Source: Actinomycetota bacterium
Lineage (GTDB): Bacteria > Actinomycetota > Aquicultoria > Aquicultorales > Aquicultoraceae
DNA length: 46,260 bases
Assembly: GCA_018333515.1 (NCBI GenBank)
Contig: JAGXSZ010000019.1
Span: forward strand, 1 to 46,260
Direction: 5' to 3'
Below are positions 29,948 through 39,346 of this stretch, one piece after another. Made by a program: the position numbers and the translations under genes. Within the stretch, counting starts at the first letter, position 1. Every line of letters begins with the position of its first letter. The notes beneath the pieces were generated by a model. That model saw only the letters and a list, made by a program, of their open reading frames with translations, made no database searches and was not told the DNA's origin.

Positions 29948-30724
29948 TTAACCCCGCAACCCCTCCAGCTCCGCGCTGAGCGGCAGCTCCAAGCCGTGGG
30001 CTTCAAGCAGCTCTCTATCGACCAGCAGCTCCCGCGTCGGGGCGTCGGCTACTATTTTGCCGCCCGAGAGAATCACCGAGCGGTCGCATGTACGCCAGGC
30101 GAAATCGAGGTTGTGGGTGGCGATTATCATGGTGTGGCCGAGTTCGAGGATAAGCGTCTCCAGGCGTTTTCTGGCCCGCGGGTCGAGGTTGCTGGTCGGC
30201 TCATCGAGCACGAGTATCTTCGGGTTCATCGAGAGGACGGTCGCTAGCGCCACCCGCTTCTTCTCGCCGAAGCTTAGGTGATGCGCCGAGCGGCTGGTAG
30301 CCCAGAGCATATCGACTACCTCGAGGGCGTCTTTTACGTGCGCTGCGACCTCAGCCTCATTCAAACCCTGGTTTATCGGGCCGAACGCGACGTCGTCGAA
30401 GACGGTCGTCAAAAAAAGCTGGTCGTCAGGGTCTTGAAAGACGAGGCCGACGAGGCCGCGAATCTTCTTAAGGTTCTGCTTGGTCGGCGCCAGGCCGTCT
30501 AACAGAAGCTCGCCCTCGCCCCTGAGCGTCCCGTTCAAGTGCATCAGGAAGGTCGATTTTCCGGCGCCGTTCGGGCCAAGGAGCGCGACGCGCTCCCCCT
30601 CGCGCACCGCAAGGTCGATGCCTTTGAGCGCGGCGGTCCCGTCCGGGTATCTATAGGTCAAGCCGACTGCTTGAATTACAGTATGCAAAACGGTATCTAA
30701 AACAGTATGCAAAACAGTATCCAA
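29948..30724 (-). CDS. cbiO: Cobalt/nickel ECF transporter ATPase, CbiO
   Basis: A 258-residue energy-coupling-factor ATPase with Walker [12 protein letters not shown], signature [16 protein letters not shown] and Walker [14 protein letters not shown]. It powers cobalt or nickel import with CbiM and CbiQ. The TTG start is backed by GGAGG 9 nt upstream and sits 3 nt after the cbiQ stop. The first 16 codons are a tandem duplication ([16 protein letters not shown]) of 24 nt, ahead of the usual start. A decayed copy of its Walker B region lies near 20 kb. Confidence 0.95.
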
Positions 30725-30727
30725 AAT

Positions 30728-31642
30728 CTAGAGCCTCCAGAATAAAATAATCGATAGCGTCACGAAAAAGAGCACGGTGAATACCGCGTCGCGGGCGGCA
30801 AACGCCGGCACTTCGAGGGTCTTTATCGTCCCGTCGTAACCCCGCGCCGACATCGCCGCGTAGACCCGCTCGGCGCGCTCGTAGGAGCGGATAAAGAGAC
30901 TCCCAACCATTTGCCCGATGATTTTGAGGTGCCAGATGCGTCCTCCCCCGAAAGCGCGTGCGTCCCTGGCGCGCATCATCGTCTTGACCTCGCTCGTCAG
31001 CACCCACATGAAGCGGTAGAGAAACGAGAAGAGCATCGTTAAGACCTGCGGCACCCGGATAAGCTCTAGCCCCTTGACGAATTTAGGAAACGGCGTCGTC
31101 GAGTAGAGAAGTATTGTCGTCAGCACCGAAAGCCACGATTTAATGAGCGCGTTGAAGAGGGTGTAGAGACCCCCGTGCGTTATCGAGTAGCGCGCGAATC
31201 CCAGATTATAGGTTTCGGGGTGGGGCTTGTCCGGCATAAACACCAGGAGCGCCCCCGCAAAGAGCACGAAAGGGAGGACGATGAGCGAGCGCTTTACACC
31301 AAAGGTAATCGGCACTCCGGCTATCATATAGAGCAGCGTTATCGCGGTGAAGTACAGGCCGAAGCGCCAAACTTCCGCCGCCGGGGTAAGCACGACCGCC
31401 AGGATAAGCGCGACGAGCGCTATCGTTTTGGTCCGCGCGTCTAAGCGGTGGATGGGGGAGTCGGCGTATGCGTATAGTTCGAATGAGTAGGTGTGCGTAT
31501 GCCGGTGCGCCTCTTGAAGCTTTTTGTCGGCGGCTTTCTCATGGGCGTGCTGGTGATAGTGGGCATGGCGATGCGTAACCGCCCCGTGCGCGTGGTCGTG
31601 AAAGTGTATCTCATTGTCATCGTGCGTGTGTTGCGAATCCAT
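30728..31642 (-). CDS. cbiQ: Cobalt/nickel ECF transporter T-component, CbiQ, with His-rich N-terminus
   Basis: A 304-residue membrane protein. The first ~50 residues hold about 17 His (HTHDD, HFHDHAH, THRHAHYHQHAH, HRHTHT), an added metal-binding tail. The rest is the EcfT/CbiQ domain with ~5 membrane segments and the coupling motifs ARDARAF and AMSARGYDG that contact CbiO. The His tail suggests storage or delivery of Co2+ or Ni2+ at the inner face (inference). It lies between cbiM and cbiO. Confidence 0.93.
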   Translation of the reverse strand: MDSQHTHDDNEIHFHDHAHGAVTHRHAHYHQHAHEKAADKKLQEAHRHTHTYSFELYAYADSPIHRLDARTKTIALVALILAVVLTPAAEVWRFGLYFTAITLLYMIAGVPITFGVKRSLIVLPFVLFAGALLVFMPDKPHPETYNLGFARYSITHGGLYTLFNALIKSWLSVLTTILLYSTTPFPKFVKGLELIRVPQVLTMLFSFLYRFMWVLTSEVKTMMRARDARAFGGGRIWHLKIIGQMVGSLFIRSYERAERVYAAMSARGYDGTIKTLEVPAFAARDAVFTVLFFVTLSIILFWRL

Positions 31643-31714
31643 CGGTCGGTTTCCTCTCCCAAGAACCAGGGGTCAGGTCTTTATTTTTTAGCCTAGCCTA
31701 GTTGCGAGCCCGTT

Positions 31715-32632
31715 CTAGCCGGTCTCTCCACCAACCTGCCGGCGCCTGGCAATGCCGGCGAGCCCGAAGCCGACGCCTAGCGCGATACAGACGCCCACCA
31801 GGCCGGCCAGGCCGGTCGCCAGCCACTCGTTTCGCAGCCCCGGAACGGCGTAGTCGGGAATGAGCGAATTAAAAAGACCGGTCGCCCTATCGATGAAACC
31901 GAGGTCGTGCGCGACCCGCTCGAGACCGTCGGGGAGTGAGGATGCGAGCGGCGACAGAAATACCGCGAGCGCGATCGATATCGACGAAAAGACGGCGATG
32001 CTTCGCACGTCGAGCGCGGCATTGCCTTGGATAAGGTCGGGCCGGACTCTGGCTAGGTAGCCGATGGTGGTAGCAGTGATAAGACCCTCGGCCGCCCCGA
32101 TGACGATATGCCAGCCGGTCATGAGCGAGGCGGTTATCGCCAGCGGCGCCGTGCCGGATAAATAGAGTTCGACCGCGACAACGAGCGCCGTGACTACCGT
32201 AGATACCAGCCCGGCCGAAAATGCCGCCACCGGAGTGCTGAAACGTTTTATCACGCCGTAGATTAGATACGCGACGGAGGGGGCTATAATCGCCATGTTG
32301 AACACGTTGGCCCCGAGCGCGCTGATGCCGCCGTCGCCGAAGAGAAATGCCTGGACGCCGACGACCGAGAGCATCACGAGCATCGCCCTCCACGGGCCGA
32401 TGAGAATCGCCGCGAGTGCTGCCCCGAGGAAATGGCCCGAGGTGCCGCCGGCGACCGGGAAGTTGAGCATCTGCGCCGCGAAGATGAACGCCGCGAGGAC
32501 GCCCATGAGCGGCGGGTCTTTCTCTTCCAACTCTTGGTTGGCACGGCGTACCGCATAGGTTATCGCGATGCCCGCCGCCGCCGCTGTCGTCACCCATGTC
32601 TTCGTGTCCAGGAATCCATCGGGGATATGCAT
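31715..32632 (-). CDS. cbiM: Cobalt/nickel ECF transporter substrate component, CbiM with fused PDGLE (CbiN-like) domain
   Basis: A 305-residue membrane protein. It starts MHIPDGFL, the CbiM metal-binding N-terminus where His2 and the free amino end bind the metal. The [20 protein letters not shown] and [16 protein letters not shown] motifs are family hallmarks. After residue ~220 comes a PDGLE domain ([11 protein letters not shown]) with a last membrane helix, which replaces CbiN. AGGAGC precedes the ATG. It takes up Co2+ (or Ni2+) for corrinoid and nickel enzymes. It is 85 nt after a His-rich small protein. Confidence 0.95.
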
Positions 32633-32717
32633 TTACGGCTCCTTTAATAATTCCAATGGTTGTTTACTCTTAGACACTTCGGTGTCCGATTGCGGGTGCC
32701 CGATTCATCGGGCGAAA

Positions 32718-32966
32718 CTAAACTTCTGTGATATGGACGTGTCCGTGGTTGTGGTGGCGCAAATCCTCCATCGCCGCCTCGAGGAGCGCCCCGGCCTCCG
32801 CCGCTTTCGCCCCGGCGTCTTTGAGCTTGCCCGAAAGCTCGTGCTCGTGCGCCGCGTCGGCGAGCCTCGCCCATTGCTCGGCGTTGGTATTCAAGAGCTT
32901 GAAATGCTCTAGTAGCTGGTAAATCGCGACCTTAAAGTCGGTCGTATTGAGTCCTGCTTGACACAT
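32718..32966 (-). CDS. Small His-rich-tailed protein at the head of the cobalt-transport operon
   Basis: An 82-residue mostly helical protein that ends in RHHNHGHVHITEV, a likely metal-binding tail. The start at 32966 is preceded by GGAGGTG; a longer frame upstream has no ribosome site. It is the first gene before cbiM, cbiQ and cbiO, so it may bind or sense cobalt or nickel for the transporter. No named family is recognised. Function is inference from tail and place. Confidence 0.7.
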   Translation of the reverse strand: MCQAGLNTTDFKVAIYQLLEHFKLLNTNAEQWARLADAAHEHELSGKLKDAGAKAAEAGALLEAAMEDLRHHNHGHVHITEV

Positions 32967-33041
32967 TTCCACACCTCCGGCTCGGCCTTGAGGCGTTCGC
33001 CCCGGATTAGGCGTCGCCGTTGGTCGACCAGTTTGTCGACC

Positions 33042-33091
33042 AAAAACAAAAACCACGAACTCGCGGGGTTCGCCCCGCTGGACCTTCGTGG
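33042..33091 (-). terminator. Intrinsic terminator between cooT and the cobalt operon
   Basis: On the minus strand CCACGAA ... TTCGTGG encloses an inner GCGGGG / CCCCGC hairpin, followed by TTTTTGTTTTT. It lies 121 nt after the cooT stop and before the His-rich gene. It ends the trx-cooT operon or acts in the leader of the cobalt operon. A second inverted repeat, TTGGTCGAC / GTCGACCAA (33020-33043), follows. Confidence 0.8.
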
Positions 33092-33211
33092 TCTGGTTAT
33101 TAGTTATTAGATTGTCAAAAGCATATCAGGTTTCGAGCGCGCTGCCTAGAGAGCGCACGCAATAATTGCCGATTATTTGCATGCAGCGCCCGCCTGTAGT
33201 CTGTACCTACG

Positions 33212-33403
33212 CTATTCGCTCGGCGTTAAAATAACCATATGGTCGAGGAGCTTCAGCTCTTTGAAATCGGCCTTGACTTGCTTTTGTTCTCCGAAAAGGT
33301 CGATGAGGAGAAGTTTATCGCCCGATGGCGTTATCGAAACGACATCTTTCATGAATATCTCTTGCTCGCCGTCCTTCTCGATATATACGTTTGTCTCACA
33401 CAT
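33212..33403 (-). CDS. cooT: CooT family nickel-binding protein
   Basis: A 63-residue CooT-family protein (MCETNVYI, VVSITPSGDKLLLIDLFGEQ, LDHMVIL). In Rhodospirillum rubrum, CooT binds Ni(II) through the N-terminal Cys2 and helps CO dehydrogenase maturation. Cys2 is present here. The start at 33403 overlaps the end of the DUF3842 gene by 8 nt, with GGAGG inside that gene. It goes with CooC from the first part of the window. Confidence 0.88.
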   Translation of the reverse strand: MCETNVYIEKDGEQEIFMKDVVSITPSGDKLLLIDLFGEQKQVKADFKELKLLDHMVILTPSE

Positions 33404-33848
33404 TCCCTTTAACCTCCACAACTCTACTGGTCTTATTGCCGGTGAGCGTGCTCTTGACCATCCTGAGCATCTCGTCCATGAGGTGGGGGAGCGGCAGGTT
33501 GCTCGCCCCCACGATGTCGATATGCGGCTGGCTCATCGGCAGCAGGATTTTCTTGGCTTTCGACAGCGATAAGCTCTCCGCCATCGCGGCGGTAAGCTCA
33601 CCCATAAACGAATTGGGCATGATTACCGATATCGGGCCGATTATAACGGCGGCCTCGGGCGCGGTTATTCGAAAGGCGTTTTCGCCGCTCGCCCCGCGGT
33701 TCGCCCCCGCCTTCATCATATTGCTCGCCGCAATCGCGTTCGTCCCGAGCACTATTATCTCTATCTTATCGGGGAGTTGCTCCCTGAGCCTGGCGACGAT
33801 TTGCTGGCCTATGCTGCCGCCGGCCCCGTCTACTACGAGTATTTTCAT
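33396..33848 (-). CDS. DUF3842 family protein
   Basis: A 150-residue protein of the DUF3842 family. The N-terminus MKILVVDGAGGSIGQQIVARL is a Rossmann-like beta-alpha unit with a glycine loop, followed by IIVLGTNAIAASNMM and IIGPISVIMPNSFMGE. Known neighbours of this uncharacterised family are CooT-like genes (memory, not checked). Here it is between trxA (3-nt gap) and cooT (overlap), so a role in nickel or CODH handling is plausible. Confidence 0.8.
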   Translation of the reverse strand: MKILVVDGAGGSIGQQIVARLREQLPDKIEIIVLGTNAIAASNMMKAGANRGASGENAFRITAPEAAVIIGPISVIMPNSFMGELTAAMAESLSLSKAKKILLPMSQPHIDIVGASNLPLPHLMDEMLRMVKSTLTGNKTSRVVEVKGNV

Positions 33849-33851
33849 CGG

Positions 33852-34181
33852 TTATCCAAGCCACTCCGAGAGTTCATCGACAAATCTCTCTTTGGGCATC
33901 GCGCCCATGAACCGCCGCTTAGCTTCGCCTTTTTCGAATAGGATGAAGGTGGGGATGCTCAACACCTGAAACTCGCCGGCTATGCGCGGGTTATCATCGA
34001 CGTTTAACTTGGCGAACTTTACTTTCTCTAAGAATTCACCGGCGAGTTCCTCGATGACCGGGGCGACGATTCTGCACGGTGCGCACCACTGCGCCCAGAA
34101 ATCGACCAGAACCGGCTTGTCCGAACCGATAATCTCCGCATCCCACGTCTGCTCGCTTACTTCGACCACATTCTCTCCCAT
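33852..34181 (-). CDS. trxA: Thioredoxin
   Basis: A 109-residue thioredoxin with the active site WCAPC (Trp32, Cys33-Cys36), the cis-Pro region (VLSIPTFILF) and normal length. It reduces protein disulfides in the cytoplasm and is reduced by the thioredoxin reductase encoded 19 nt upstream. Confidence 0.97.
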   Translation of the reverse strand: MGENVVEVSEQTWDAEIIGSDKPVLVDFWAQWCAPCRIVAPVIEELAGEFLEKVKFAKLNVDDNPRIAGEFQVLSIPTFILFEKGEAKRRFMGAMPKERFVDELSEWLG

Positions 34182-34200: not shown

Positions 34201-35118
34201 TTAAGTCTCTATGAATTTTTCGGCGGATACCGCGGCGAGCGCCCCCTCGGCGGCAGCCCACACTACCTGCTTTAAGTTATTCTTTCTGACGTCGCCCGCG
34301 GCGAAGACGCCCGGGATGGAAGCGGTCAACGTATCATCGGTGATAATATAGCCGGCCTCGTCCATACTGAGCGCGCCCGCGAAGAGTTCGGTGTTGGGGA
34401 TGTTCCCGACGAAGACGAAGATGCCTTCGACGCCGACCTCTCTTTCCTCACCGGTCTTGACGTTTTTTACCGTGACCGCTGAGACCGAGTTCTCGCCGGA
34501 CACCCCAGAGAGCACCGAATCGAGCAGAAAGTCGATCTTTTCGTTCTTGAACGCGCGGTCTTGGACTATTTTCTCGGCGCGAAGTCGGTCGCGCCGGTGT
34601 ATAATCGTGACTTTGCTCGCGAATTTCGTCAGGTAGATAGCTTCTTCAACGGCCGAGTTGCCGCCGCCGATGACCATGACCCGCTTGTCCCTAAAGAACG
34701 GGCCGTCGCAAGTGGCGCAGTACGAGATGCCGCGCCCGGTAAGCGTCGCCGCGCCCGGTACATCGAGCTTGGTCGGGCGCACGCCGCTAGCGATAATAAT
34801 CGCTTTAGCGGCATACTCACCGTCGGGAGTCGTTACTTTCTTTAGCGGACCACTCAAATCCGCCGAGGTGACCTCGCTCATATCCAGCTCGACATCGAAT
34901 TTTTGCGCTTGCTCGCGCATCTTTTCGGCAAGCTCGAACCCGGTGATGCCCTCGGGAAAACCGGGGTAGTTTTCGATAATATCCGTAATCGAGGCCTGCC
35001 CCCCGATAAGTTCTTTTTCGAAAAGTTTGGTCTTGAGCATCGAGCGCCCCGCGTAAAGGCCGGCGGCCAGGCCGGCGGGCCCGCCACCGATTATCAGCAC
35101 ATCATATTCGTTATTCAA
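34201..35118 (-). CDS. trxB: Thioredoxin reductase
   Basis: A 305-residue low-molecular-weight thioredoxin reductase. FAD motif GGGPAGLAAGLYAGR (~11-25), redox-active CATC followed by DGP (~135-140), nucleotide motif GGGNSAVEEA and the C-terminal FAAGDVR are all seen. TTG start with AAAGGTGG before it. It lies 5 nt after the PIN-TPR gene. NADPH or ferredoxin-type donor cannot be decided. Confidence 0.96.
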   Translation of the reverse strand: MNNEYDVLIIGGGPAGLAAGLYAGRSMLKTKLFEKELIGGQASITDIIENYPGFPEGITGFELAEKMREQAQKFDVELDMSEVTSADLSGPLKKVTTPDGEYAAKAIIIASGVRPTKLDVPGAATLTGRGISYCATCDGPFFRDKRVMVIGGGNSAVEEAIYLTKFASKVTIIHRRDRLRAEKIVQDRAFKNEKIDFLLDSVLSGVSGENSVSAVTVKNVKTGEEREVGVEGIFVFVGNIPNTELFAGALSMDEAGYIITDDTLTASIPGVFAAGDVRKNNLKQVVWAAAEGALAAVSAEKFIET

Positions 35119-35123
35119 ACGCG

Positions 35124-36257
35124 TTACCCACCTTTCGATTGTGAATTCAACCGGGCTTCGACCTGTTTCAAATATTCGTCCGCTTGAACGTAGAAAATAC
35201 TGTCTTTAGGTGCTTTTTCCTTGACCTTAATAAAGTTCGAACGGGCGTTGAGCAGGTCGCTCTCTTCTCGCAGGAGAATCACCCCTAAGTTGAAGTAGGC
35301 CTGATAGAAATTGTCGTCCCTGCTTATCACCGTATTGAGTTCGCGAATGGCCAAGTCGGTCGTGCCCAGGTATGAATAGGCGACAGCCATGTCCGTTCGC
35401 GTAGAGTTTTGATCAGTGTCGATGTCGAGCACCTTTTTAAAATATTCGATTGCCGTCTGAAAGTTCTTCTTGTCCTGAGTCAAGTGGCCCATGTTGAAAT
35501 AGGTGTTTCCAAGGCCGATAAGGGCTTGGATATCCTTTGGGTTGTTCTCGATTATCGCGAGGTACGTATCTCGCTGTGTTTCCAGCGCCTTGACGCTATT
35601 CTGGTAATCCTGGAAGCCCTGGACCAGCTGTGGCGGCCCTTCCGGGATGCCCGCCCCTTGCTCAAGCCCCAAATAGTCCGTGATTTGCGGGAAGAATGCC
35701 AGAGCGATTGCGACCGCCGCGACCGCCGCGATTGCCGTAAGCGCTTTCTTTTGGGCCTTTACCTTAAAGAAGGCCCGTTTGACGCCGCCGTAGGCAAACT
35801 CCTCTCCCGGGTGCTCAACGTTGACTCCGAGCGCCTGCGCTTTCAAGAGCATATTCAAATCGTTGGTCACAATAGTCACCGGTCGTCCATTGGTATCTTG
35901 TTTTACTTGGTAGACGATGGTCAGAATCCTATCATCCGAGTTCTTCGCACTGAAGGTCTCCGGCGTCCCCTTGCCGGGGTCAAAGCTCATTACCCTCACT
36001 ATAGAATTTTTGCCGAAGGATATCCCGTCAGTAAGCTTTCCTTTTTCGGACAAGTCGAAGAGAATCCGCGAGATTTGGCGGCTGCGGTAGCGCAACTCAC
36101 GGTCGGCCCGCGAAGTCTTTACTTTGTCCAGCTCGCTCAAGACGATATCCGGTATTACGACATCCGCGTCCGGGAACGCGTATATCGCCCTTGGATTGTA
36201 GAGTAATACGTTGGTGTCTAGTACGTAAATTGGCCGTTTCTTCTTTATTTTTGACAT
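35124..36257 (-). CDS. PIN-domain nuclease fused through a membrane helix to TPR repeats
   Basis: A 377-residue protein. Residues ~10-150 are a PIN domain of the PhoH-associated type: YVLDTNVLL (Asp14), SELDKVK (Glu42), NSDDRIL and VTNDLN carry the acidic metal-binding residues of an RNase. Then a membrane helix (~172-192) and tetratricopeptide repeats (~215-370). The PIN side is expected in the cytoplasm and the TPRs outside. PIN domains of this type are usually joined to a PhoH ATPase. A TATAAT box only 9 nt before the ATG suggests a leaderless mRNA. It heads the trxB, trxA, DUF3842, cooT operon. Confidence 0.82.
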   Translation of the reverse strand: MSKIKKKRPIYVLDTNVLLYNPRAIYAFPDADVVIPDIVLSELDKVKTSRADRELRYRSRQISRILFDLSEKGKLTDGISFGKNSIVRVMSFDPGKGTPETFSAKNSDDRILTIVYQVKQDTNGRPVTIVTNDLNMLLKAQALGVNVEHPGEEFAYGGVKRAFFKVKAQKKALTAIAAVAAVAIALAFFPQITDYLGLEQGAGIPEGPPQLVQGFQDYQNSVKALETQRDTYLAIIENNPKDIQALIGLGNTYFNMGHLTQDKKNFQTAIEYFKKVLDIDTDQNSTRTDMAVAYSYLGTTDLAIRELNTVISRDDNFYQAYFNLGVILLREESDLLNARSNFIKVKEKAPKDSIFYVQADEYLKQVEARLNSQSKGG

Positions 36258-36266
36258 AGTAATAAC

Positions 36267-36272
36267 ATTATA
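36267..36272 (-). promoter_or_regulatory. -10 box for a nearly leaderless transcript
   Basis: TATAAT on the minus strand, 9 nt before the start codon of the PIN-TPR gene. No Shine-Dalgarno is visible between them. A -35 box is not clear. Confidence 0.5.
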
Positions 36273-36354: not shown

Positions 36355-36717
36355 TTAGTTGGTGGCACTCCGAGCGATCGCTTTACCAGACAAGTAGGCG
36401 TCGAAGTAACCGATACGGTGCGCGAACAGGGTTTTCTTAGGGTTAGTCTCGACCTCCACTACCGCGAAACCGTTTTCGACGGCAAAGCCGGTAAGCTTGC
36501 TCCGCGTCCGCTCGCACATCTTGTAAGCGGCCATGAGGGCGACCTCTTGCTTGCCCCCGGAGTTTCGATATGCGCCGGCGGTTTCCTCGGCGACCGAGCG
36601 GGCGAATTTGTCCGCGAGCCAGTAGTTGGTCGCCACAACGGTTGCATCGTTTATTAGCACTCCTATTATCGCTAAGGATATGATGACCTTTGCGAGCCTC
36701 CCGAAACCGTCGTTCAT
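36355..36717 (-). CDS. Small membrane protein with pilin-like N-terminus
   Basis: A 120-residue protein with one hydrophobic helix at the start (~residues 9-31, AKVIISLAIIGVLINDATVV) and a soluble part outside, the layout of TadE/TadG-like pseudopilins. The start at 36717 is chosen because GAGAGGTG lies 7 nt upstream. No named family is clear. It is a single gene divergent from lon. Confidence 0.6.
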   Translation of the reverse strand: MNDGFGRLAKVIISLAIIGVLINDATVVATNYWLADKFARSVAEETAGAYRNSGGKQEVALMAAYKMCERTRSKLTGFAVENGFAVVEVETNPKKTLFAHRIGYFDAYLSGKAIARSATN

Positions 36718-36970
36718 CGCCACACCTCTCGCCCTTGTTGCCGCAAATCCGAAAAAACTGGTAAAGTTATTATCGTCAGCGGCAGCCGGGCTCCTTAGCG
36801 TTGTGAGAAAGTTCCCGCACCCGATTAAGGAGCGTTATACGTTATCCGATACTCTGTTAAGTCGAAACGAGATTTACGCCGTCTTGGATTAGCCATGCGG
36901 TTACCCGGGGATAAATGTGAGTAGGACCGTACCGCGCGTTGACTAAAATATGTTGAAGAAGGAGAGTCGC

Positions 36971-39346
36971 ATGCTTGAAATAGGCAAAGAAGAAATAGTC
37001 ATACCAGAAGAATTACCCCTAATCCCGCTGAGGGATATGATAATCTTTCCAAACCTAGTCGTACCCCTCTTCGTAGGAAGAGAACGGTCGATAAACGCGC
37101 TGGAAGCGGCGATGAAGGAAGAGCACATCGTTGCGCTGGTCACGCAGAAGATAGCCGATGTCCAGGAGCCGGAGATAGAAGACCTATACCGTCTCGGAAC
37201 GGCAGCCACGATTATGCAGGAGCTGAAAATACCCGACGGCACGGCTAAAGCGCTTGTAGAAGGACTCAGCCGTATAGAGATCGTCGAGTTCACACAGACC
37301 GAGCCTTACTTCAGGGTCAGGATAAAGGTCTTGGACGAAGAAGAAGAAAAAGATATCGAGGTCGAGGCGCTCATGCGAAATCTCGTCTCGCAGTTCGAAC
37401 GGGCGGCGAGCCTGGGCAAGCCGATACCGCAAGAGGTCTTGCTGGCTACCGCTAATATCGATGAGCCGAGCCGCCTCGCCGATTTTATCGCGTTCCATTT
37501 GAGCCTTAAGATAGATGAAAAACAGCGGATAATCGAAGCCGTCAACGCCCGCGAGCGCCTGGAGAGGGTCTCGACTTTCTTAAGCCGCGAGCTTGAGATA
37601 CTCGAGATAGGCAGCAAGATACAGTCGCGCGTCAAAGAGCAGCTGACGAAGACCCAAAAAGAATATTTCCTGCGCGAGCAGCTAAAAGCCATCCACCAGG
37701 AACTCGGCATAGCGGACGAACAGGCCGCGGAGATAGATGAGCTGCGCGCCAAGATAAAATCGGCCAAGATGCCGAAGCCGGTCAACGAGAAGGCGCTCAA
37801 AGAACTCGATAGGCTGGCGAAGATGCCTCAAGCGGCCGCGGAGTCATCGGTCATTCGTACCTACCTCGATTGGCTCATCGGTTTGCCCTGGCAGAAAAAA
37901 TCGAAGCAAAAACTCGACCTTAAAGAGGCGTCTAAGATACTCGATGAAGACCACTACGGTCTGGAGCAGGTCAAGAAGCGCGTACTCGAGTACCTTGCGG
38001 TCCATAAATTGACCGAGAAGATGCGCGGGCCAATCCTGTGCTTTGTCGGCCCGCCGGGAACCGGCAAGACCTCCATAGGTAAATCTATCGCGCGCTCTCT
38101 CGGGAGAAAGTTCGTGCGGATTTCGCTCGGCGGCGTCCATGACGAGGCCGAGATAAGGGGACACCGACGCACCTACGTCGGGGCGTTGCCCGGTCGCATC
38201 ATCCAAGCCATACATCAGGCGGGGACCAAAAACCCGGTATTCATGCTCGACGAGATCGATAAAGTCGGGGCCGATTTCAGGGGCGACCCTACCGCGGCGC
38301 TCCTGGAGGTGCTCGACCCCGAGCAGAACTTCGCCTTCAGCGACCACTACCTAGAGGTCCCCTTCGACCTCTCCGACGTCGTCTTTATAACGACGGCGAA
38401 TATGCTGGAGACCATACAGCCGGCGCTCAGAGACCGCATGGAGGTAATACCATACTCGGGCTACACTGAGGAAGACAAGGTACACATAGCGACCGAGTAT
38501 CTCATCCCCAAGCAGGTAGAGACACATGGCTTAAATGACAAGAACATCTTGATAGAAGAAGCGGCGCTCCGGAAAATCATCCGTGAATATACACGGGAAG
38601 CCGGCGTGCGAGACATAGAGCGCAAAATAGCGGGTATTTGCCGCCAAGTGGCGCGAAAAGTCGTCGAAGGCGAGAAAAAGCGCTTGAAGATAACGCAAGA
38701 GAACCTCCACGATTACCTGGGGCCGAGCCGGTTCCGCTACGGGCTGGCCGAAGAAGCCGACGAGATCGGTGTCGCGACGGGGCTTGCCTGGACCGAAGCG
38801 GGCGGCGACGTCCTCTCCGTCGAGGCGACGACCTTGAGCGGCAAGGGCAAGCTGATTCTCACAGGCCACCTCGGCGAGGTCATGCGCGAGTCGGCGCAAG
38901 CGGCCGTGAGCTATGTGCGCTCCCGCGCCGAGGTTCTCAAAATCGACAAACATTTTTACAGCGAGTTCGACACGCACATCCACGTGCCCGGCGGCGCTAT
39001 CCCCAAGGATGGTCCATCGGCCGGCATCACAATGGCGACGGCTTTGGCCTCGACGCTGACCAAGCGCCCGGTCAAACGCGAGCTGGCGATGACCGGCGAG
39101 ATAACTTTGAGGGGCCGCGTACTCCCAATCGGCGGCGTCAAAGAAAAAGTTCTGGCCGCGCATCGGGCCGGCATCAAGGAGATAATCCTGCCCGAGGAGA
39201 ACGAGAAGGACCTCGAACTCGTAGCCAAAGAGGTCAAAGAAGAACTCAAGTTTCACTTCGTCGATCACATGGACGCGGTACTCGAACTGGCGCTCAGGCC
39301 GGAGACACCCTCGAAACGGATACGGCAACCGGGAAAACAGGCGTAG
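36971..39346 (+). CDS. lon: ATP-dependent protease Lon
   Basis: A 791-residue LonA. N-terminal substrate domain ([24 protein letters not shown]), coiled-coil region, AAA+ domain with Walker [10 protein letters not shown] (~360-368) and Walker B FMLDEID, then the Ser-Lys protease domain ([10 protein letters not shown] with catalytic Ser near 684; [11 protein letters not shown] with catalytic Lys near 725). The start at 36971 is chosen because AAGGAG is just upstream; an in-frame ATG lies 21 nt earlier. It degrades damaged and regulatory proteins. A terminator follows. Confidence 0.97.

Follow-up and report, generated by a model that had tools for sequence, protein, structure and literature searches.

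The locus

The window, a stretch of 46,260 nucleotides from an Actinomycetota bacterium of the Aquicultoraceae (contig JAGXSZ010000019.1 of assembly GCA_018333515.1), carries on its reverse strand a gene whose 377-aa product consists of a PIN_4 nuclease domain, one membrane helix and three TPRs, as seen with Pfam, hydropathy and AlphaFold. A small membrane protein without a Pfam match, here called p122, is encoded directly upstream, trxB and trxA follow downstream, and lon is transcribed divergently (Table 1). Early-branching Actinomycetota share this architecture, and envelope and thioredoxin genes belong to the operon. Related loci are cited below by L numbers and genomes by G numbers.

Table 1. 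Features of the PIN-TM-TPR locus, in window coordinates
Feature	Position	Strand	Evidence
DUF3842 protein, further along the cluster and conserved there	33396..33848	-	Pfam 6.5e-49; 30/80 loci
trxA, thioredoxin	33852..34181	-	NCBIfam TIGR01068 5.5e-35; conserved beside trxB
trxB, thioredoxin reductase, 5 nt downstream of the PIN gene	34201..35118	-	NCBIfam TIGR01292 8e-116
PIN-TM-TPR protein, 377 aa, ATG start	35124..36257	-	Uninterrupted ORF; full length kept in named relatives
Three TPRs (residues 243-348) and capping helix (354-376), predicted extracytoplasmic	35130..35531	-	Pfam, AlphaFold
Transmembrane helix (172-190), positively charged towards the PIN domain	35688..35744	-	Kyte-Doolittle 2.34, charge count
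PIN_4 nuclease domain, residues ~10-148	35814..36230	-	Pfam, AlphaFold, PDB fold matches
Putative catalytic Asp133 (TND motif)	35859..35861	-	D in 78/78 orthologues
Putative catalytic Asp108 (NSDDR motif)	35934..35936	-	D in 78/78 orthologues
Putative catalytic Glu42	36132..36134	-	E in 78/78 orthologues
Putative catalytic Asp14	36216..36218	-	D in 78/78 orthologues
TATAAT -10 box, 9 nt before the ATG	36267..36272	-	Recurs in L026-L035
p122, small conserved membrane protein directly upstream	36355..36723	-	Relatives upstream of the PIN gene in 21-22/80 loci
lon, divergent	36950..39346	+	NCBIfam TIGR00763; in flank of 58/80 loci

Domain architecture and start of the transcript

The anatomy of the protein is well supported. 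Pfam PF13638 (PIN_4) matched residues 11-148 with an E value of 9.2e-28 (97.6 bits against a cut-off of 21.9) and TPR families matched residues 232-331, so that the union of nuclease, membrane helix and TPRs in one intact frame, proposed in an earlier note on this DNA, is borne out together with two of its details: the helix placed at about residues 172-192 coincides with a Kyte-Doolittle peak at 172-190 (helices were called from hydropathy only), and the repeats do reach the C-terminus, where a capping helix follows the third one. The full-length AlphaFold model, for which the 78 orthologues served as input, had a pLDDT of 86.8 and a pTM of 0.49, with mostly >90 in the PIN blocks, about 98 in the three TPRs and low values in the linker and transmembrane stretch; as the pTM indicates, the two halves have no fixed mutual orientation in this model. 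Modelled alone, the PIN domain reached a pTM of 0.84. An assembly fusion is ruled out, because the same architecture recurs at 80 named loci and in 36 of 396 genomes.

PIN_4, TPRs and the genes of the operon are each already known singly. On their combination as PIN-TM-TPR, our literature search, outside which the 2017 classification of the PIN superfamily lay, found no paper joining PIN, TPR and membrane, and an earlier mention is possible.

The transcript is predicted to be leaderless or nearly so, as had been suggested before: no Shine-Dalgarno sequence precedes the window's ATG, and all ten of the nearest loci (L026-L035) have a TATAAT or TATACT box that ends 6-9 nt ahead of the start codon. 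In other classes such a box is rare at this place (L078 has TATAAT) and the gene often overlaps or abuts the upstream gene, so leaderlessness would be a feature of the window's lineage.

The nuclease domain

The acidic residues that the earlier note had picked out (D14, E42, NSDDR and TND) are present, and the four positions listed in Table 1 are invariant in orthologues down to 26-27% identity. Asp109, beside Asp108, is Asp in 75 of the 78 and differs in three, and T131, N135, R60 and R64 are likewise invariant among the 78 aligned sequences. The best PDB fold match of the PIN model was the PIN domain of human SMG6/EST1A (E 1.2e-7), with exosome structures of the Rrp44 type and Nmd4 lower in the list. 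Because the active-site residues are invariant and the fold is that of a PIN domain, we infer a metal-dependent endoribonuclease that groups with the PIN_4/SMG6-like enzymes.

A pair of cysteines lies next to this active site in 33 orthologues, spaced C-X3-C in 30 and C-X4-C in three, where the helix opening with motif III ends, just before motif IV; its columns align to about residues 119-123 of the window's protein (L044 and L048 are examples). All 33 bearers fall among the 50 members of one well-supported, mainly Coriobacteriia clade, and the pair is absent from every orthologue outside it, including the window's protein. In nearly all 33 these are the only cysteines of the protein, and trxB is usually the next gene. 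A disulfide controlled by thioredoxin is thus a candidate mechanism for the clade with the pair only, and is the obvious thing to test there.

Topology and the TPR side

In all sequences examined (24 sequences and 80 loci, which are overlapping sets) the 15 residues preceding the helix hold 3-7 Lys/Arg and the following 15 hold 0-2. By the positive-inside rule, the flank of a membrane helix that is rich in Lys/Arg is the cytosolic one. With one transmembrane helix and the positive bias on its N-terminal side, the pattern of a type II protein, the PIN domain would therefore be cytosolic and the TPRs outside, and the protein probably crosses the membrane once, in type II orientation. Of the 78 orthologues, 74 have no cysteine in the TPR half, and a relative at L121 (4364-5050) is a lipoprotein of the lipobox type (LSCAS in its N-terminal signal) whose TPR region is 40% identical over residues 224-374. 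An external position of the TPRs is thus suggested by the agreement of the charge bias, the lipoprotein and membrane-anchored relatives, and the cysteine-poor repeats.

Conservation and distribution

Among the 40 genomes nearest to the window, 37 have relatives at E <= 0.001, some of which match the TPRs only. In a wider sample of 396 Actinomycetota genomes, 46 passed E 1e-25: 36 with a full-length match, eight with TM-TPR only, and two with a PIN in frames of PhoH2 size. This sample gives a less biased count than the contig scan that yielded the 80 loci, since the latter used motifs derived from the family and kept the best matches to the full protein, so that both the restriction to Actinomycetota and the full architecture in 80/80 loci carry a selection bias. 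Three of the 80 loci run off the contig end, and genes in neighbouring loci were called mechanically as ORFs and given their names by similarity. The named loci come from Candidatus Aquicultor, Oleimmundimicrobium, Geothermocultor, many Coriobacteriia/Anaerosomatales and unclassified Actinomycetota bins; behind a few unexpected labels (Slackia, Aeromicrobium) there are probably misassigned bins.

PIN_4 matched all 78 aligned orthologues, and TPR families matched at least 77 of them, so that the architecture withstands both checks suggested in the earlier note: whether the TPR part occurs in related proteins, and whether the acidic PIN residues are conserved in orthologues. The majority residue had a mean frequency of 0.68 across the PIN domain and of 0.52 across the TPRs, where R287 and D289 are conserved.

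Relatives that lack the PIN domain also occur. The window's genome has a TM-TPR paralogue of this kind (G000:C23:68844-69416; L118 8342-8947). Another lies at L119 (5348-7626), in a genome that yielded no full PIN-TM-TPR protein; its gene overlaps the one for a membrane ResA-like redoxin, and a gene of the CcdA/DsbD type comes next.

Gene neighbourhood

The link to the thioredoxin genes is tight. Among the 75 loci with enough downstream sequence, trxB starts at most 150 nt past the stop of the PIN gene in 68, commonly with an overlap of 4 nt, and in five further loci the first Trx-type gene to follow is trxA, at a distance of 5-169 nt; neither was found next to the PIN gene at L100 and L101.

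On the upstream side, a secreted protein of the DUF6049 type with a C-terminal helix is encoded within 4 kb in about 50 of the 80 loci, and kin of p122 occur at the PIN locus in several lineages, with p122 undetected at most loci. L037 and L093 have MurJ between DUF6049 and the PIN gene. At L087 (7075-7950), L090 and L102 the gene 23-48 nt upstream encodes Amj (PF10997, 7e-82), which is unrelated to MurJ and has the same proposed job, lipid II flipping; these three loci count as one event because they form one clade in the tree, and with Amj standing where other lineages have MurJ, one lipid II flippase may have been exchanged here for a non-homologous one. Since MurJ or Amj adjoins in only five loci, the window's own not among them, the link to the flippase may be inherited gene order.

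The same surroundings are found in other Actinomycetota, where tblastn placed MurJ beside DUF6049 in 23 of 30 fetched loci. We take Rv3909 to be a DUF6049 protein. According to a two-hybrid study, Rv3909 lies beside the MurJ homologue Rv3910 and is probably transcribed together with it, and the MurJ homologue was reported to be essential in M. smegmatis (PMC6656915). In those loci that we followed further, the stretch from MurJ to TrxB encodes a kinase-like protein and an ECF sigma factor, with a kinase domain protein in L157 and L158, a kinase-like protein judged by eye in L154, and also a zf-HC2 anti-sigma factor in L157. Flanks and slot are thus shared, with the PIN-TM-TPR gene here standing where these loci have a kinase-like protein and an ECF sigma factor (and, in L157, the anti-sigma factor). 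A small p122-like protein follows MurJ within this stretch in L156-L158; its homology to p122 across the phylum rests on size, position of the transmembrane segment and gene order, because identity is only 14-27%. At L162 (G014:C10), the DUF6049 hit is followed by trxB and trxA, and the PIN gene was not found in G014, an apparent loss.

Comparison with known systems

The nuclease domain has about 36% identity to the PIN domains of PhoH proteins, and the earlier note was fair in stating that PIN domains of this sort are normally joined to PhoH: annotated matches on plasmids and phages were mostly PhoH proteins, aligned over the PIN domain only. PhoH2 (NF053827) has a homologous PIN_4 domain, with residues 10-171 of the window's protein aligned to positions 3-162 of the model, and carries the PhoH ATPase where the window's protein has the membrane helix and TPRs instead. 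The match to NF053827 reached 73.7 bits against a cut-off of 680 and covered the PIN part only, and PF02562 was not found in the protein, so that a PhoH2 with a lost ATPase was rejected as a matter of membership and kept as kinship of the PIN domain. The only PhoH match of the genome is a separate frame of 353 aa, and PIN-PhoH frames are separate genes in the relatives G033-G035. A mobile element was likewise rejected, as neither plasmids nor phages gave a match over the full length.

SMG6, too, combines a PIN domain with helical-repeat domains, and both it and Rrp44/Dis3 are eukaryotic and have no membrane helix; although the best PDB fold matches, they reach a TM-score of only about 0.65 at 19-23% identity. 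YacL is another bacterial membrane-associated PIN protein (PIN-TRAM). It differs in being a separate gene of the PF01850 type with a TRAM domain, in which no TPR is known; the window's protein had no TRAM match, and a YacL-like PIN+TRAM candidate lies elsewhere in the window's genome (G000:C6:2500-3036). RNase Y is a membrane-anchored endoribonuclease as well, and the likeness is in the anchoring, as it is a KH/HD-domain enzyme whose fold is unrelated to PIN. Cytochrome maturation factors of the CcmH/CycH type carry extracytoplasmic TPRs and no nuclease; their PF23914 model matches 27 of the 78 orthologues at E up to 0.001, and the window's protein only at E 0.14. HARP, a protein-only RNase P, is also an RNase of the PIN superfamily and belongs to the PIN_5 cluster (PMC8266387). 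It was rejected, as only PIN_4 among the PIN models matched at E up to 1 and the fold match was weak (E about 0.02). VapBC, a small single-domain PIN toxin with an adjacent antitoxin, does not fit a protein of 377 aa with a transmembrane helix and TPRs whose neighbours are trxB and p122.

Proposed function and alternatives

The architecture, the invariant active site, the charge bias and the operon are all observed directly in the sequences. From them we infer RNase activity, a topology, a partner, and a signal with a direction, and arrive at this reading: a membrane-tethered RNase whose external TPRs would dock an envelope partner, so that the nuclease is positioned or gated according to envelope and thiol state. 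We give this reading an even chance. The cytosolic N-terminal PIN domain would cut RNA near the membrane, and the external domain of three TPRs would dock a partner in the envelope, probably a peptide or C-terminus of an exported or membrane protein. The product of a gene of the same operon would be a likely partner, i.e. p122, the DUF6049 surface protein or a lipid II flippase. With the partner bound on the outside, the nuclease on the inside would be positioned or gated, and RNA would be cut as envelope and thiols dictate. A possible link between envelope state and RNA cutting is suggested by the conserved operon, which the gene shares with genes of the cell envelope and of the thioredoxin system, and we also counted the signalling genes in the equivalent slot elsewhere (kinase-like protein, ECF sigma, anti-sigma) in favour of a signalling role.

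The earlier note had offered two readings. A membrane-tied RNase that senses at the TPR side gains from the invariant active site, from the charges and from TPRs that are probably outside, and its RNase and signal remain the presumptive part; the other reading, in which a scaffold brings RNA decay to the membrane, loses ground because the TPRs seem to lie on the opposite side of the membrane from the nuclease. New relative to that note are the topology, the deep conservation, the linkage to trxB, the upstream DUF6049, flippase and p122 genes, the kinase-ECF slot and the CX3C clade.

The simplest alternative is an RNase that is constitutively active at the membrane, with TPRs that only anchor or place it, for instance at the pole or septum, and transmit no signal, comparable to the anchoring of RNase Y. 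The invariant active site, the single membrane anchor and the finding of no antitoxin-like partner conserved at every locus would all agree with this, but a plain anchor needs no extracytoplasmic domain of three TPRs kept across very divergent orthologues and leaves the tight operon with trxB/trxA unexplained, and we consider it fairly unlikely. That operon is what a redox-gated RNase would account for, in which thioredoxin reduces the PIN domain and switches its activity, hence the overlap of the gene with trxB. The CX3C/CX4C pair in 33 of the 50 members of one clade, mostly as sole cysteines and usually with trxB next, is as expected from such a gate; yet the window's protein and all orthologues outside the clade lack the pair and have a similarly tight linkage to trxB, so that redox gating is not a general explanation and we consider it unlikely.

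Two further readings touch the nuclease itself. Activity is known only as a prediction, which would suit a catalytically dead PIN domain that merely binds RNA in a scaffold protein, but four acidic positions invariant in 78 divergent orthologues make this very unlikely. Least probable of all, and in our judgement hardly credible, is an element of the toxin-antitoxin kind, with a PIN toxin restrained by p122 or by the membrane. PhoH2-type PIN proteins have been reported as type II toxins (PMC4826407), and p122 is encoded directly upstream in the same orientation; against this, the gene is chromosomal with a fixed gene order, most loci have no detected p122, and no full-length copy was found on plasmids or phages.

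The preferred reading of a tethered, envelope-responsive RNase could be extended to a transmembrane device made of one protein, in which the TPRs would read the state of wall or envelope, the PIN RNase would be the effector and thioredoxin would add a redox gate in one clade; we regard this extension as speculative and improbable as it stands. Bacterial transmembrane signalling is known mainly via kinases, sigma/anti-sigma pairs, proteases and second messengers. If the extension were true, binding on the outside coupled to an RNase on the inside would form a direct route from envelope to RNA, and the device would fill the slot taken in other Actinomycetota by the kinase-like protein, ECF sigma and anti-sigma factors. 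The idea is directly testable, because the gene order names candidates both for the partner (p122, DUF6049, MurJ/Amj) and for the control (TrxA), and it provides a lead on DUF6049 and on the flippase-thioredoxin locus, which is widespread in Actinomycetota.

On a separate matter, CooT and metal transport genes of the CbiM/CbiQ/ABC type follow trxA and DUF3842 in the window (29948-33421), and at related loci they are joined by genes judged by eye to be HypF/HypC/HypD-like and NikR-like; together these suggest a nickel/hydrogenase cluster.
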